59,009 nt of DNA from TM7 phylum sp. oral taxon 352 (GTDB taxonomy: Bacteria; Patescibacteriota; Saccharimonadia; Saccharimonadales; Saccharimonadaceae). Both the position numbers and the translations under genes were made by a program. This document shows, piece after piece, positions 50,000 to 55,131 of the stretch (the first letter of the stretch is position 1; each line of letters starts with the position of its first letter). The stretch covers positions 1 through 59,009 of the forward strand of contig SDRQ01000003.1 of assembly GCA_007845355.1 (NCBI GenBank). Reading direction: 5' to 3'. The notes beneath the pieces are model-generated. The model did not search any database and was not told where the DNA came from. It saw nothing but the letters and a program-made list of their open reading frames with translations.

Positions 50000-50053
50000 T
50001 TGCAAAACACTAGATATAGCGGCTATAGTTATTATTGTACGCTATATATATAG
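50000..50053 (+). promoter_or_regulatory. nrdA promoter with paired NrdR-box-like palindromes
   Basis: TTGCAA (50000-50005), an 18-bp spacer and TATAGT (50024-50029). Box 1 (core CTAGATATAG, 50010-50019) lies between -35 and -10. Box 2 (CTATATATATAG, 50042-50053) begins 32 bp after box 1. These resemble the NrdR consensus acaCwATATwGtgt, so repression by NrdR in response to dATP/ATP is expected. Confidence 0.75.
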
Positions 50054-50091
50054 CGAGCCCATAAATAAACAAAAACACAAGCTACGAAGAT

Positions 50092-50149: not shown

Positions 50150-52552
50150 GTGAAAGAAATTAACGTAGTCAAACGCGACGGAACGAAAGAACCGTTTGAT
50201 GCAAATAAAATTAATACAGCTATTTTAAAGGCGTGCGAAGGTTTGCCGGACCAAATCTCTAAGGTTGTTCAAGTTGCGACTGAATTGCAATTGACATTAT
50301 TTGATGGAATTACGACCGAACAGCTAGACGAGGCTGTCATTCAAACAGTTTTGCAAAACGTTAAAGACGACCCAGACTATGATAAAATCGCGGCACGATT
50401 ATTACTGAAAACTGTCTATAAGCAGATTTTGGGCGATTATGAAACGGCGGAAGAATTGAAAAAGCTTCATGCGCGCGAATTTCCGAAGTTTGTTAAAGCG
50501 GCGGTGAAAGAGGGTTTGCTGGATAAGCGTATGGCTGACGGTCGATTTGACTTGAAAAAGCTGGCGGCGGAACTTGATCCAGCACGTGATGATTTGAGTA
50601 AATATTTGGGTGTGGTGACCAATAAAAATCGCTACGCTCTTCGTAAGCAAAACGGTTCACCAATTGAAACACCTCAGTTTACGCACATGCGAATTGCTAT
50701 GGGGCTTAGTTACAACGAATCTGACCCAACAACTGCAGCGATTGAGTTTTATAATCACATGAGCAATTTGGAATACGTTCCAGGTGGCTCAACGCGAGTT
50801 AACGCTGGCGGTTCTTTTCCGCAGCTCAGTAACTGTTTCTTGCTTAATGTCGATGATGATATGGAGTCAATTGCTAAGGCTGTTCGCGACACAATGTGGA
50901 TTGCTAAAGGTACGGGCGGAATTGGCATTGGCTTTACAAAGTTACGTGCGGCAGGTAGTCCAGTTAAAACCACCAACACTGAATCGACTGGACCGATTCC
51001 ATTCATGAAGATGATTGATACGGCGCTTTTTGCGGTTTCTCGTAAGGGTAAAAAGGCTGGTGCGGCTGCAATTTACATGGAAAACTGGCACCTTAATTTT
51101 GATCAATTTGTTGACCTTCGTCAAAACTCTGGCGACCCATATCTAAGAACCAGATTTGCGAATACCGCGGTCTTTATTTCTGATGAATTCATGAAGCGAG
51201 TAGAAAAAGATCAAGATTGGTATTTGTTTGATCCAGCGGAAACTCCAGATTTGACGGAATTATACGGTGAAGAATTTTCAGCTAGATATAAAGAATATAT
51301 AAAGATTGCAGAAGCTGGGAAGTTGCGAACATTTGATAAAGTTCCAGCTCGTCAGCAGTTTAAGCGCATTTTGACCAGTTTGCAGGCAACTTCACATCCG
51401 TGGCTAACTTGGAAAGACACGATTAACGTGCGTGCGTTAAATAACAATACGGGTACGATTCACCTCAGTAACTTGTGTACGGAAATTACATTACCGCAAG
51501 ATAAAAACAACATTGCGACGTGTAATTTGGTGAGTATCAATTTGTCGGCATTCCTCGGTGAGGATAAGACTTGGGATTGGGATAGATTGAAAGAAGCGGC
51601 TCGTGCGGCAGTGCGACAATTGGATAATTTATGCGACATCACTCAAACGCCAATTCCAGAAGCGATGCATTCGAATCAGCAAACTCGAGCGATTGGCCTC
51701 GGGATTATGGGTCTTTCTGACGTGTTGGAGAAGTTGGGTTATTGCTACGAATCAAAAGAAGCGTACGATTTGGTTGATCAATTGACAGAGTTTATCAGTT
51801 ATCACGCCATTGATCAATCGGCTGATTTGGCAAAAGAATTGGGCAGCTATCCAACATTCGTAGGCAGTGGTTGGAGCAAGGGAATTCTTCCAATTGATAC
51901 GGTTGATAAATTGTCGAAAGATCGCGGCGTGAAGGTGAAAATAGACCAAAAGACGCGACTGGACTGGGATGGTTTGCGAAAGAAGGTAAAGAAGGGAATG
52001 CGAAATGCGACTCTTATGGCAATTGCGCCGACAGCTAACATTGGTCACGTGGCGGGAACTACTCCTGGAATTGATCCGCAATTTGCACAAATCTTTAGTC
52101 GTTCAACTTTGAATGGTAAGTTTTTGGAAGTGAACCATAATTTAGTTCGCGATTTGAAGAAACTTGGATTGTGGGACAATTTGAAAGATGAGATTTTTGC
52201 AGCTCAAGGCGATATTCAAGATATTGACGGCATTCCGCAAAACATCAAGGATGTTTATAAAACAAGTTTCCAGCTTAGTCCGTACGCGTTTATTGAGGTG
52301 GCGGCTAGGGCTCAGAAGTGGGTTGATCAAGCAATTTCTCGAAATATGTATCTGGAGACGCGAGACATTGACGAATATGTGAAGATTTATTCGGAAGCGT
52401 GGAAACGTGGCTTGAAAACAACATATTATCTGCACGTTAAGCCGCGTCATCAGTCGGAACAGACAACAGTTTCAGTTGATAAAATTGCAGAACAAAAAGT
52501 CCGCACAAATAGTAAAGTGCGCGGATTTGGATTTGCGAAAATTAATAAATAA
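50150..52552 (+). CDS. nrdA: Ribonucleotide reductase class I alpha subunit, lacking C-terminal redox cysteines
   Basis: 800 residues from GTG 50150 (AAGGAGGG 3 nt upstream). An N-terminal ATP-cone (about 1-90, VVKRDGTKEPFDANKI) is followed by the ten-stranded barrel with active-site cysteines C229 (LSNCFLL), C443 (NLCTEI) and C458 (ATCNLVS) and the radical-transfer TTYYLHV near the end. It reduces NDPs to dNDPs with NrdB. The family normally ends in a flexible tail with a Cys pair that re-reduces the active site; this protein ends FGFAKINK with no cysteine. Confidence 0.95.
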   Translation: MKEINVVKRDGTKEPFDANKINTAILKACEGLPDQISKVVQVATELQLTLFDGITTEQLDEAVIQTVLQNVKDDPDYDKIAARLLLKTVYKQILGDYETAEELKKLHAREFPKFVKAAVKEGLLDKRMADGRFDLKKLAAELDPARDDLSKYLGVVTNKNRYALRKQNGSPIETPQFTHMRIAMGLSYNESDPTTAAIEFYNHMSNLEYVPGGSTRVNAGGSFPQLSNCFLLNVDDDMESIAKAVRDTMWIAKGTGGIGIGFTKLRAAGSPVKTTNTESTGPIPFMKMIDTALFAVSRKGKKAGAAAIYMENWHLNFDQFVDLRQNSGDPYLRTRFANTAVFISDEFMKRVEKDQDWYLFDPAETPDLTELYGEEFSARYKEYIKIAEAGKLRTFDKVPARQQFKRILTSLQATSHPWLTWKDTINVRALNNNTGTIHLSNLCTEITLPQDKNNIATCNLVSINLSAFLGEDKTWDWDRLKEAARAAVRQLDNLCDITQTPIPEAMHSNQQTRAIGLGIMGLSDVLEKLGYCYESKEAYDLVDQLTEFISYHAIDQSADLAKELGSYPTFVGSGWSKGILPIDTVDKLSKDRGVKVKIDQKTRLDWDGLRKKVKKGMRNATLMAIAPTANIGHVAGTTPGIDPQFAQIFSRSTLNGKFLEVNHNLVRDLKKLGLWDNLKDEIFAAQGDIQDIDGIPQNIKDVYKTSFQLSPYAFIEVAARAQKWVDQAISRNMYLETRDIDEYVKIYSEAWKRGLKTTYYLHVKPRHQSEQTTVSVDKIAEQKVRTNSKVRGFGFAKINK

Positions 52553-52566
52553 AGGAGGAAATTAAG

Positions 52567-53544
52567 ATGGGAATTTTAGGTTCAGGATTACGCGATGGAT
52601 TGTCACTTCACCCAATTCGTTACCCTTGGGCGTACGATCTTTATAATCAAGCAGTGGCTAACACGTGGTTTCCAAACGAAGTTCAATTAGTTCAAGATTT
52701 GGCAGATTTTGAAAAATTGTCAGACGATGAAAAACACGCATTGAAAACGGTTATTAGCTATTTGAACCCAAACGAGTTATTGATCAATAAATCATTGGCG
52801 TTCGGTATTTATCCATACGTGAACGCGGCGGAAGCTCAACTATATTTGTCAAAACAGATGTGGGAAGAAGCCAATCACTTTATGACATTTGAATACATTA
52901 TTGAGACATTTCCGTTTGATCGCGAGGAAATTTATGCTGCGGGATTTGGCAAAAAGTCATTGGCTGACAAGGCTGACTTCCAGAATAAGCATCTGGACGT
53001 GATGCTTGATCCGAATTTGGATATTTATTCTCTGGAAGGTAAGAAAGACTTCGTTAGGTCTTTGGTAGCATATAACATTGTGCTTGAGGGAATTTGGTTC
53101 TATTCAGGCTTTATGGTTGGCATGAGTTTTCGCCAGCGTAATTTGTTGCGTAATGTCGGCTCGCTACTGGACTGGATTACTCGCGATGAAAATCTTCATT
53201 TGACGTTTGGCATCAATCTACTTTTGACGATTTTGGACGAGAACCCAGAATTGCAAACACAGGAATTTGCAGAAGAAATCCGTGGCTTGATTCTGCAGGC
53301 AGTGGAGCTTGAGAAGGCTTACAATAAGGATATGCTACCAAAGGGAATTCTGGGCTTAAATGCTGATTACGTGAACCAATATGTTATGCATATGACTGAC
53401 CGTCGTTTGCAAGAATTAGGTTTTGAGCCTGAATACAATGTGCCAAATCCAGCCAAATGGATGGCAGCCGCCAACGATACGCTGGAATTGGTGAATTTCT
53501 TTGAAAGCACAAACACTAGTTACGAAGTTAATACCACGAAGTAA
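52567..53544 (+). CDS. nrdB: Ribonucleotide reductase beta subunit, class Ic-like
   Basis: 325 residues from ATG 52567 (AAAGGAGG upstream), 14 nt after nrdA. The metal ligands can be traced: E70 (NPNELL), E101 and H104 (EANH), a later Glu (VLEGIWF), and RDENLHL. The residue four after the first His, the radical Tyr in E. coli NrdB, is Phe108 (HFMTF). The first ligand is Glu rather than Asp. Both match the Mn/Fe class Ic type known from Chlamydia. It generates the radical for NrdA. Confidence 0.94.
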   Translation: MGILGSGLRDGLSLHPIRYPWAYDLYNQAVANTWFPNEVQLVQDLADFEKLSDDEKHALKTVISYLNPNELLINKSLAFGIYPYVNAAEAQLYLSKQMWEEANHFMTFEYIIETFPFDREEIYAAGFGKKSLADKADFQNKHLDVMLDPNLDIYSLEGKKDFVRSLVAYNIVLEGIWFYSGFMVGMSFRQRNLLRNVGSLLDWITRDENLHLTFGINLLLTILDENPELQTQEFAEEIRGLILQAVELEKAYNKDMLPKGILGLNADYVNQYVMHMTDRRLQELGFEPEYNVPNPAKWMAAANDTLELVNFFESTNTSYEVNTTK

Positions 53545-53558
53545 TGGGAGTTAATGAT

Positions 53559-53954
53559 ATGAACGAATTAGCAAAAGAAATATTAGATACAGTCGAAGTT
53601 GGTGCGTTGGCAACGGTGAATGTTGATAGGACACCTCTGGTGACGCCGCTACACTTTGCGCGACTGGGTGATTCGATAGTTTGGATATCAGAGACGACTG
53701 CACGCCATTCAGAAAATGCGTTTCGAAACGGTAAGGCGGAATTTGTGGTTTGGGATGATAAAAAGCGAGCAGTTTTCTTAAAAACTAACGTGACTGAACT
53801 CCCAGAATCTGAGAAAGAGGCGGCAATGGCGGCTTATAAAGAGAAGCTGGCTGATTTTATGCCACGTTGTCAAAATCCGCAAATATACGTTGCGCCAATT
53901 GGTGAACTTGATGAAAAAACTACAACGGGCAATTGGCTGCATTTTATTGCATAA
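53559..53954 (+). CDS. Pyridoxamine-5'-phosphate-oxidase-like FMN-binding split-barrel protein
   Basis: 131 residues from ATG 53559, chosen because GGGAG lies 8 nt upstream; ATG 53544, overlapping the nrdB stop, has none. The split-barrel fold shows as GALATVNVDRTPLVTPLHFA and IYVAPIGEL. Such proteins bind FMN or related flavins and act as oxidoreductases. Placed third in the nrd operon, it could supply electrons to the reductase or its cofactor (inference). Confidence 0.82.
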   Translation: MNELAKEILDTVEVGALATVNVDRTPLVTPLHFARLGDSIVWISETTARHSENAFRNGKAEFVVWDDKKRAVFLKTNVTELPESEKEAAMAAYKEKLADFMPRCQNPQIYVAPIGELDEKTTTGNWLHFIA

Positions 53955-53999
53955 GCACTATATCTAGCGTAAAATTAGTTAAGTAACTACTAAATATAG
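53947..53999 (+). promoter_or_regulatory. Second NrdR-type promoter (CxxC tail-protein gene)
   Basis: TTGCAT (53947-53952), a 17-bp spacer and TAAAAT (53970-53975). Box 1 core CTATATCTAG (53958-53967) lies between -35 and -10. Box 2 core CTAAATATAG (53990-53999) starts 32 bp later. The geometry is the same as at nrdA. Confidence 0.72.
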
Positions 54000-54011
54000 G
54001 GGAAAATGAAA

Positions 54012-54185
54012 ATGAATGCGAATCAAATTATTACTGATGACATGACTTTGGAAGAAAAATTGAGTGCTATTGACGCAGCTCTTAAAGCGGCGCAAGAAGC
54101 GGCTGATGATCAAGCAAAGTCGAACGGTACTGTTGCGGCACCAGTTGACCCAGCAAGTTTGACTATTTGTGACGGTTGCGAATAG
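54012..54185 (+). CDS. Small CxxC-tail protein, candidate detached NrdA redox tail
   Basis: 57 residues from ATG 54012 (AGGGG 9 nt upstream; ATG 54006 adds two residues). Residues 1-35 form a predicted amphipathic helix pair (LEEKLSAIDAALKAAQEA), residues 36-50 are a Ser/Gly/Ala/Pro linker, and the end is LTICDGCE. This resembles the linker and shuttle-cysteine tail that class I NrdA proteins carry at their own C-terminus and that the NrdA here lacks. It has its own NrdR-type promoter next to nrdAB. Function is inference; it could alternatively be a metal-binding peptide. Confidence 0.75.
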   Translation: MNANQIITDDMTLEEKLSAIDAALKAAQEAADDQAKSNGTVAAPVDPASLTICDGCE

Positions 54186-54228
54186 ACCTCTAGGTTATAT
54201 TGTTTATCGAAGCACATAAAATACTAAA

Positions 54229-54270
54229 TATCTTTATCTCCAAAAGCTATAAAGATAGTTTTTTGGAGAT
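54229..54270 (+). terminator. Overlapping alternative hairpins after the tail-protein gene
   Basis: Hairpin A: TATCTTTAT (54229-54237)/ATAAAGATA (54249-54257) followed by six T, a terminator. Hairpin B: ATCTCCAAAA (54236-54245)/TTTTGGAGAT (54261-54270), which uses the loop and T run of A. The two cannot form together. Confidence 0.7.
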
Positions 54271-54312
54271 ACGAAGAGTAAATATCAAGTTGTGGTTATA
54301 TATCAACAACCA

Positions 54313-54383
54313 CCATATATAGTGTTTATGGTTTTAATTGTAACGCTATATATGTTGATTTTGACCAAATAACAGTGTATAAT
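54313..54383 (+). promoter_or_regulatory. Third NrdR-type box pair and promoter (structured RNA unit)
   Basis: Box cores CCATATATAG (54313-54322) and CTATATATGT (54345-54354) start 32 bp apart, as at the other two sites. Directly after box 2 comes TTGATT (54355-54360), a 17-bp spacer and TATAAT (54378-54383), predicting a start near 54390. The boxes sit upstream of this promoter rather than inside it. A weak TATGGT at 54327-54332 would match the other geometry. Confidence 0.65.
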
Positions 54384-54389
54384 AAAATC

Positions 54390-54590
54390 ATCATTCAATT
54401 GAGGGCAAAAACTCATATGGGGGGATGAAGTGTTGTAGCGGTCTAGAACGCCGTAAGGCAGCTACAACGATTGACAATATGTGCAGTTGTATATCGAGAC
54501 GGATGGCGTAGGTTTCAAAAAGCCCTAATGCCACAAAGGCAATAAGTGCTGTAGTCTACATCACCGGTCTCGGCATATGACTTTTTGTTT
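54390..54590 (+). ncRNA. Candidate structured noncoding RNA, about 185 nt
   Basis: A long closing stem pairs 54405-54419 with 54574-54588 (13 Watson-Crick pairs, one C-C mismatch, a G-T pair). Inside lie P2, GTTGTAGC (54432-54439)/GCTACAAC (54461-54468), capped by GCC-GTAA-GGC (GNRA-type loop). P3 is CGAGAC (54495-54500) plus GATG with CATC (54559-54562) plus GTCTCG (54567-54572), enclosing P4, GGCGTAGG/CCTAATGCC. The 3' end is a T run. I do not recognise tmRNA, SRP, RNase P, 6S or a riboswitch consensus. Confidence 0.65.
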
Positions 54591-54650
54591 ACCAAATCTA
54601 GTGCGATTCTAGATTAGTACATTATAAATTTGGGAAAAGAAAAAGAAACA

Positions 54651-54734
54651 ATGTCGATGCAGCCTCTGGCTGTACTCAGCCGATGGCAAGAAGCAACTTT
54701 AACGAAAGGATTTGCTTTATGCAAATTTGCATAA
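54651..54734 (+). CDS. Possible 27-residue leader peptide
   Basis: ATG 54651 opens 27 codons (MSMQPLAVLSRWQ...) ending at TAA 54732-54734, inside the hairpin that hides the start of the next small gene. Translation of it would melt that hairpin. The ribosome site is only A/G-rich, so support is weak. Confidence 0.28.
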   Translation: MSMQPLAVLSRWQEATLTKGFALCKFA

Positions 54735-54739
54735 ATCCT
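54707..54739 (+). promoter_or_regulatory. Hairpin sequestering ribosome site and start of the Cys-rich gene
   Basis: AGGATTT (54707-54713) can pair with AAATCCT (54733-54739). Within it lies the perfect 18-bp palindrome 54717-54734 containing the ATG (54719). Both the AAAGGA ribosome site and the start codon are hidden. Confidence 0.6.
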
Positions 54740-54865
54740 GAATGTGATAAGCATGTTATTTGCCGATACATTATCCGAAACGGTAAGAGGGTTTACCCTA
54801 AAAAGGCTAAATACTTCTCGTTTTGTACGAAAAAAGCTGTCCGACCTGATAATCAAACAGCTTAG
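54719..54865 (+). CDS. Tiny Cys-rich, zinc-finger-like protein
   Basis: 48 residues from ATG 54719, supported by AAAGGA 8 nt upstream; an in-frame ATG at 54683 lacks a ribosome site. Cys at 4, 9, 15 and about 36 (ICINPECDKHVIC, later YFSFCTKK) surround a basic stretch RNGKRVYPKKAKY, a layout like small zinc-binding nucleic-acid proteins. No named family. It lies in the third NrdR-type unit downstream of the structured RNA and before a GC-rich terminator. Confidence 0.5.
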   Translation: MQICINPECDKHVICRYIIRNGKRVYPKKAKYFSFCTKKAVRPDNQTA

Positions 54866-54916
54866 CCCGTAATCGGTTTTAGTAGGTTTCTAGTGTTGCC
54901 TATTAAAACACTCGTG

Positions 54917-54943
54917 AACGCCCGAGAAGTCGGGCGTTTATGG
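54917..54943 (+). terminator. GC-rich terminator of the structured RNA/Cys-rich unit
   Basis: AACGCCCGA (54917-54925) pairs perfectly with TCGGGCGTT (54930-54938) with a GAAG loop; the following T tract is short (TTTATGGG). Confidence 0.65.
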
Positions 54944-55004
54944 GTATTTTAATATAGCCAAAAACACTATTGATATTTTTATATTTATATAATGTTTGTT
55001 GCCC

Positions 55005-55023
55005 ACCTATTAATAGGTTTTTA
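55005..55023 (+). terminator. Weak terminator-like palindrome
   Basis: ACCTA-TTAA-TAGGT followed by five T. The surrounding 54945-55130 is AT-rich with no gene that I can support. Confidence 0.4.
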
Positions 55024-55131
55024 TTATTACTAACCATAATACTACACGTATTGTATCACTCAAAGCATAAGCTTTTCAAGTATATTATATTCCTATGTTT
55101 GTTTCGATGGTATAATTGCCACCTCTAGTTA

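Follow-up and report, generated by a model that had tools for sequence, protein, structure and literature searches.

A small protein of Saccharibacteria as the probable detached C-terminal redox tail of class I ribonucleotide reductase

In class I ribonucleotide reductases (RNR), every turnover leaves a disulfide in the active site, which is re-reduced by a cysteine pair at the C-terminus of the catalytic subunit NrdA and then by a redoxin. A paper from 2018 states this for all enzymes of the class, with the C-terminal pair located in NrdA (PMC6187632). The locus described here raises the question of how a class I NrdA is re-reduced which ends without such a pair. The window, which is the whole analysed stretch of 59,009 nucleotides, belongs as a single contig to a Saccharibacteria genome assembled to 636 kb and 85% completeness. 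The gene row consists of nrdA, nrdB, a flavin-reductase-like gene (53544-53954) and a small gene, with the following features:

50007-50054, forward strand: pair of NrdR-type boxes upstream of nrdA, ACACTAGATATAGCGG and ACGCTATATATATAGC, 32 bp apart
50150-52552, forward strand: nrdA, catalytic subunit of class I RNR, 800 aa, GTG start, with ATP cone and barrel
52520-52549, forward strand: C-terminal RGFGFAKINK of NrdA, from where relatives with an intact tail run on into a linker and CxxC
52567-53544, forward strand: nrdB, radical-generating subunit (PF00268, 1.6e-72)
53955-54003, forward strand: NrdR-type box GCACTATATCTAGCGT (53955-53970, 2 mismatches) and a weaker partner about 33 bp downstream, before the small gene
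54012-54185, forward strand: small gene for the putative detached redox tail, 57 aa (59 aa counted from the upstream ATG at 54006)
54048-54125, forward strand: predicted helical part of the small protein, residues 13-38, with the conserved MTLEEKLxAIDxAM (helix in AlphaFold2)
54147-54182, forward strand: putative redox end DPASLTICDGCE of the small protein, with Cys53 (54168-54170) and Cys56 (54177-54179)

For NrdA, matches to the Pfam families PF02867 (6.9e-168), PF03477 and PF00317 were identified. Three of the six cysteines of the protein, C229, C443 and C458, were aligned with those in the active site of P. aeruginosa NrdA (5im3), so that the barrel with three active-site cysteines of a class I NrdA is present. 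The other hallmarks of the class, an NrdB partner of the kind with a di-metal site (PF00268) and a Tyr-Tyr radical path near the C-terminus (KTTYY motif), are also present, but the redox pair at the C-terminus of the same chain is lacking. A first-pass annotation of this DNA had described an NrdA that keeps the three active-site cysteines and ends in FGFAKINK without a cysteine pair, and this was confirmed, with C532 as the final cysteine. The match to the NCBIfam model NF005101 covers model positions 3-788 of 822; since it stops at 788, NrdA is devoid of the last 34 model positions.

The closest solved relative of NrdB is the class Ic R2 protein of C. trachomatis (1syy, 3.3e-72). NrdB has a Phe at the position of the usual radical Tyr (EANHFMTF), which, together with the likeness to the Chlamydia class Ic protein, suggests a cofactor of the Mn/Fe type. 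An Rfam match inside nrdB (CLRN1-AS1) was under the gathering score and was taken as chance. The gene between nrdB and the small gene codes for a pyridoxamine-oxidase-like flavin reductase and is possibly tied to electron supply.

The small gene encodes a protein of 57 residues, MNANQIITDDMTLEEKLSAIDAALKAAQEAADDQAKSNGTVAAPVDPASLTICDGCE, when read from the start at 54012, which is better spaced behind GGGGAAAATGAAA and was therefore preferred over the first ATG at 54006. In an alignment of 34 members, residues I20, D46, P47, C53 and C56 are invariant, and the Saccharibacteria proteins always end in CxxC(E/Q/S). In the AlphaFold2 prediction, a helix (residues 13-38) is joined by a short linker to a disordered end, in agreement with the helical N-terminal part and flexible end proposed in the first-pass annotation. 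No match to a redoxin family was obtained in family-profile searches. The small protein is predicted by AlphaFold2 to be without strands and carries its CxxC at the C-terminus, and therefore does not belong to thioredoxin, glutaredoxin or NrdH, which have a redoxin fold and an N-terminal CxxC. Matches to Pfam RanBP1 and to PHROG were weak, below cut-off or uninformative, and were set aside.

The origin of the protein can be traced in other Patescibacteria. There, the GFG element recurs in NrdA proteins 55-61% identical to the one of the window, and the chain continues through a linker to CPIDPAERNQCDSCQ or a close variant of it at its end; the intact tails are of the form CPIDPAERxQCDSCQ (CPIDPxERxQCDSCQ in relatives of 57-61% identity), and no match to the small gene was found at these intact-tail loci. 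A profile of the small protein matched intact NrdA tails in a profile-profile comparison (P 1.1e-7) and, when 380 whole phylum genomes were searched, the profile alone picked an intact NrdA tail in the genome G684 (E 0.0016). In the genome G222 (L133), the small gene lies directly behind nrdA and retains the ancestral end ACPIDPAERALCDSCQ, and it represents a good intermediate. The tail homology and this intermediate indicate that the tail arose by fission and not by de novo invention. The proposal that the tail had been split off is therefore supported, since its end is homologous to intact NrdA tails, was lost from NrdA and co-occurs with the shortened enzyme. Among the features which count against a detached tail is the conserved GFGFAK at the NrdA end, of which it gives no account.

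The distribution of the small gene was followed in 198 genomes of the family; the analysis as a whole relies on metagenome-assembled genomes and viral contigs. Matches were identified in 95 of these genomes, from 29 of 61 genera, with E values down to 1e-34 and 48-100% identity for the full-length matches, so that the 57-residue reading frame is a real gene, as the first-pass annotation had assumed. Class I NrdA of the window type was assigned to 99 of the 198 genomes, the remainder of 127 matches after removal of 28 genomes in which all matches were distant (identity of at most 36%). The small gene is present in 95 of these 99 genomes, in 92 by direct search and in three by reading of the neighbourhood (G033, G034, G078). 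In the remaining four (G055, G083, G169, G178), nrdA itself is cut by a contig end, and the co-occurrence across genomes which the earlier note had set as its own test was thereby borne out almost completely in the lineage of the window. Divergent tail genes overlooked by the first query are those of G033, G034, G078, L046, L055 and L073. Among the family genomes without NrdA of the window type, only three gave a match: G014, which is 67% complete, G050, where the contig begins within the last 40 residues of nrdA, and G088. The copy in G088 (L097:7629-7706), a genome without class I NrdA, is a decayed tail gene without cysteines, which reads MGQIISNTMTLEEKLSAINQAIASLS and then a stop. At the NrdA ends of the split clade, a cysteine after KTTYY was present in 0 of 128 (redundancy included).

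In a maximum-likelihood tree of 58 NrdA proteins, the state without cysteines requires four changes: the tail would have been lost three times, and the fourth change is a regain, or a mixed bin, in G223. In the family f27, which belongs to the same class, a different NrdA (about 40% identical) is present, and C-terminal cysteines are absent in 11 of 12 sampled genomes; the NrdA of the sister family f31 retains CSILDPDCEACQ. Eight of the 11 tail-less f27 genomes encode a protein of 32-37 residues which ends in WDKPMVCPIDPKELAECEACQ; its gene has a strong Shine-Dalgarno site and is unlinked to nrdA, being located far away or on a different contig. This protein matched intact tails with P 2.6e-11. 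The tail gene was not found in the other three, G213 (682 kb, nearly all of which was read), G215 and G232, and this counts against a detached tail. The gene usually neighbouring the tail gene is absent from G213 as well, which suggests an assembly gap there. A third case is G492, where nrdA ends in KKFAAPTA and an open reading frame of about 35 aa after nrdB ends in GDPNLNVCESCQ, the same words as in the intact tails of its relatives.

The first-pass annotation had named relatives with both a cysteine tail and the small gene as evidence against a split. One genome, G223, has an intact cysteine tail plus two small tail genes, and this was counted against a detached tail, but it is a single derived case nested in the tail-less clade. 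A contig of the same genome (L293, G223:C113) contains phage virion and endolysin genes, with a tail gene of the f27 type directly after the endolysin gene. In G210 of the family f33, a stand-alone tail-like open reading frame of 33 aa, VQKDETTAVVEEDFLANVCPLNPDNIEDCQACQ, was identified (L289:1960-2058); a class I NrdA was not found there at the cut-off of 1e-60.

With respect to regulation, NrdR-type boxes were scored against a hand-entered consensus, and five matches were obtained in the window compared to 1.0 expected, all five at the nrd locus. Members of an NrdR regulon have two 16-bp boxes upstream; before the small gene, one good box and a weak partner were identified, with similar findings in relatives and f27 and the same layout in L033 and L063. 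The NrdR-type promoter of the earlier claim would correspond to the box at 53955 and its weaker partner. Tail genes which are not directly behind nrdA usually have a well-conserved box, GCGCTATATATAGCGT, 56-93 bp upstream, and five of seven f27 tail genes have one at 94-123 bp. Directly after the tail gene of the window, a variable cassette (54187-55123) contains a further NrdR-type box pair (54310, 54343), a structured stretch at 54380-54600 (RNA z -2.6) and a small open reading frame; between the same flanks, about 1 kb of unrelated sequence is present in L082, a near-identical relative.

It might be argued that the small protein serves several enzymes as a general carrier of thiols, with RNR as just one client, as it is tiny and flexible and its gene is unlinked to nrdA in f27 and in phages. 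However, the NrdR-type boxes before the gene, the end motif specific to NrdA tails, the absence of the gene from sampled family genomes without this NrdA and the decayed copy in G088 speak against this, and such a role is considered quite unlikely.

The small gene of several genomes lies in frame just downstream of nrdA. This would also fit a tail which is rejoined to NrdA by stop-codon read-through or protein splicing, without any action in trans. However, the intervening stop codons are of all three kinds and often several in succession, and the small genes are equipped with separate starts and Shine-Dalgarno sites. In addition, nrdB and another gene intervene in the window, the f27 gene is distant or on another contig, and the phage records are without nrdA, so that hardly any credence is given to a rejoined tail. 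Other gene orders bring the putative detached tail together with a redoxin: in G319 (L131), nrdA, tail, nrdB and glutaredoxin follow each other with gene ends that touch or overlap, and in G033 a glutaredoxin-like gene is located immediately upstream of nrdA.

Tail proteins were also identified on 27 viral contigs of IMG/VR, 25 being of the window type and two of the f27 type. INPHARED phages gave no tail match, and the phage evidence therefore rests on the IMG/VR contigs. The RNR large subunit (PF02867) was found in none of the 27 whole viral records, several of which have 72-99 kb, although a record may be a fragment. On nine of the 27 contigs, four of which are close relatives, a glutaredoxin-like gene lies beside or overlaps the tail gene. 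Virion genes were located within about 10 kb of the tail on the two contigs checked, coding for terminase, portal and capsid (L225) and for a tape measure protein (L237). Judged by the tail sequences, the phage hosts would be Saccharibacteria. Since a phage with the tail but without the enzyme can use the tail only in trans, this is the strongest indirect argument for action in trans. It appears rather likely that phages without RNR bring their own tail of 32-60 residues, often together with a glutaredoxin, in order to take control of the electron supply of the host RNR or to accelerate it, with the tail as an exchangeable part. If true, the tail gene would count as a minimal metabolic gene of phages, by which a peptide is plugged into the active site of a host enzyme. 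Two phage contigs (L214:128-480, L215:9968-10308) encode two different tails in overlapping tandem, the second of which ends in PxDPMDxLQCDSCQ.

The phage genes also bear on the idea that a redoxin reduces NrdA directly and that the small protein is a regulator with a borrowed tail motif, for example, an inhibitor competing for the active site. Small RNR-binding regulators are known, and a tail mimic could block the active site; yeast Sml1 has been proposed as an RNR inhibitor competing there, and an inhibitor of the Sml1 kind would bind R1 and lower its activity. However, both cysteines are kept in all aligned host proteins and in all 25 A1-type phage proteins, while an inhibitor needs neither, and there is no reason for phages to bring an RNR inhibitor beside a glutaredoxin. 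The NrdA tail was moreover lost in exactly those lineages which have the small protein. A regulator is thus very unlikely.

The tail homology, the loss from NrdA, the co-occurrence, the shared operon and box type, the repeated fission and the carriage by phages with glutaredoxin lead with high confidence to the conclusion that the small gene codes for the C-terminal redox tail of class I NrdA, which was fissioned off in a Saccharibacteria ancestor and would work in trans. For the disulfide exchange in trans, the docking and the redoxin partner, the following course can be proposed. With each dNDP made, two cysteines in the active site of NrdA, by homology C229 and C458, would be left joined as a disulfide, and the CxxC for re-reduction would be carried on the separate 57-residue protein. 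Its flexible DPxxxxxCxGC end would enter the active site of NrdA, swap the disulfide and exit, and the peptide would then be re-reduced by glutaredoxin, NrdH-redoxin or thioredoxin. A thioredoxin is encoded in the genome of the window, and its closest relative has a glutaredoxin too. The peptide is probably held on NrdA (or NrdB) by its helical part, which is new compared to the ancestral linker, and in the lineage of the window the conserved helix is the best candidate for holding the tail to NrdA. In an AlphaFold2 model of the natural read-through fusion L040, the tail appears only as a low-confidence helix.

A similar arrangement is known from the split class II enzyme NrdJa/NrdJb of Pseudomonas aeruginosa, where likewise the catalytic chain is without reducing cysteines, a separate product exchanges thiol and disulfide in trans, and both are needed in vivo (PMC4520616; PMC5704485; PMC9669993). 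By tail homology and co-occurrence, the small protein corresponds to this kind as a separate gene product with the reducing cysteines. However, NrdJa/NrdJb belongs to class II (B12), and for NrdJb a folded, cysteine-rich zinc-finger domain has been described together with an IscU-like one, whereas here nrdB adjoins nrdA and the partner, a peptide of 32-70 aa with a helix, a flexible end and one Cys pair, would serve a class I NrdA, has arisen repeatedly and is also carried by phages. Ordinary class I NrdA tails, of the E. coli type or the bacterial CxxC type, have the same motif and presumed chemistry, but are covalently attached, while here the tail is on another chain.

For yeast R1, a study by Zhang from 2007 reportedly found that the tail acts on the neighbouring subunit. 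For class II NrdJd, mixed mutants showed a tail serving another chain (PMC5704485). In both, the tail need not share the chain with the active site, but it remains part of a full RNR chain in the oligomer. In phage Aeh1, two polypeptides of a split nrdA reassemble into an active class I NrdA (PMC2988022); this split is restricted to the phage and resulted from insertion of the homing endonuclease mobE, not from detachment of the tail only. The glutaredoxin-NrdB fusion of Facklamia ignava is another rearrangement of a class I reducing chain, which moves the redoxin and not the NrdA tail (PMC6187632). A stand-alone tail of class I was not described in the open PMC papers searched. Split RNR is known from class II, and no class I counterpart of such small size and with carriage by phages came up in these papers.

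The redox tail of class I RNR has been regarded as built into NrdA universally, and in a large bacterial group it would be a separate diffusible protein, with at least three independent fissions within Patescibacteria and uptake of the tail alone by phages. This would provide a natural system for tail access to the active site, rate control and redoxin recognition without cutting the enzyme, and points to a step at which parasitic bacteria with a very small genome may control their dNTP supply. It is also a concrete pay-off for annotating proteins of less than 60 residues.

In place of the conserved helix, the tails of f27, G492 and some phages have a short acidic-aromatic motif in common (DEDWDK, DDDWKL, EQDFLA), which may hold them to the enzyme, and those of f27 (DEDWDKP) may mimic the C-terminus of NrdB (..TLDWD); both are taken as leads only.
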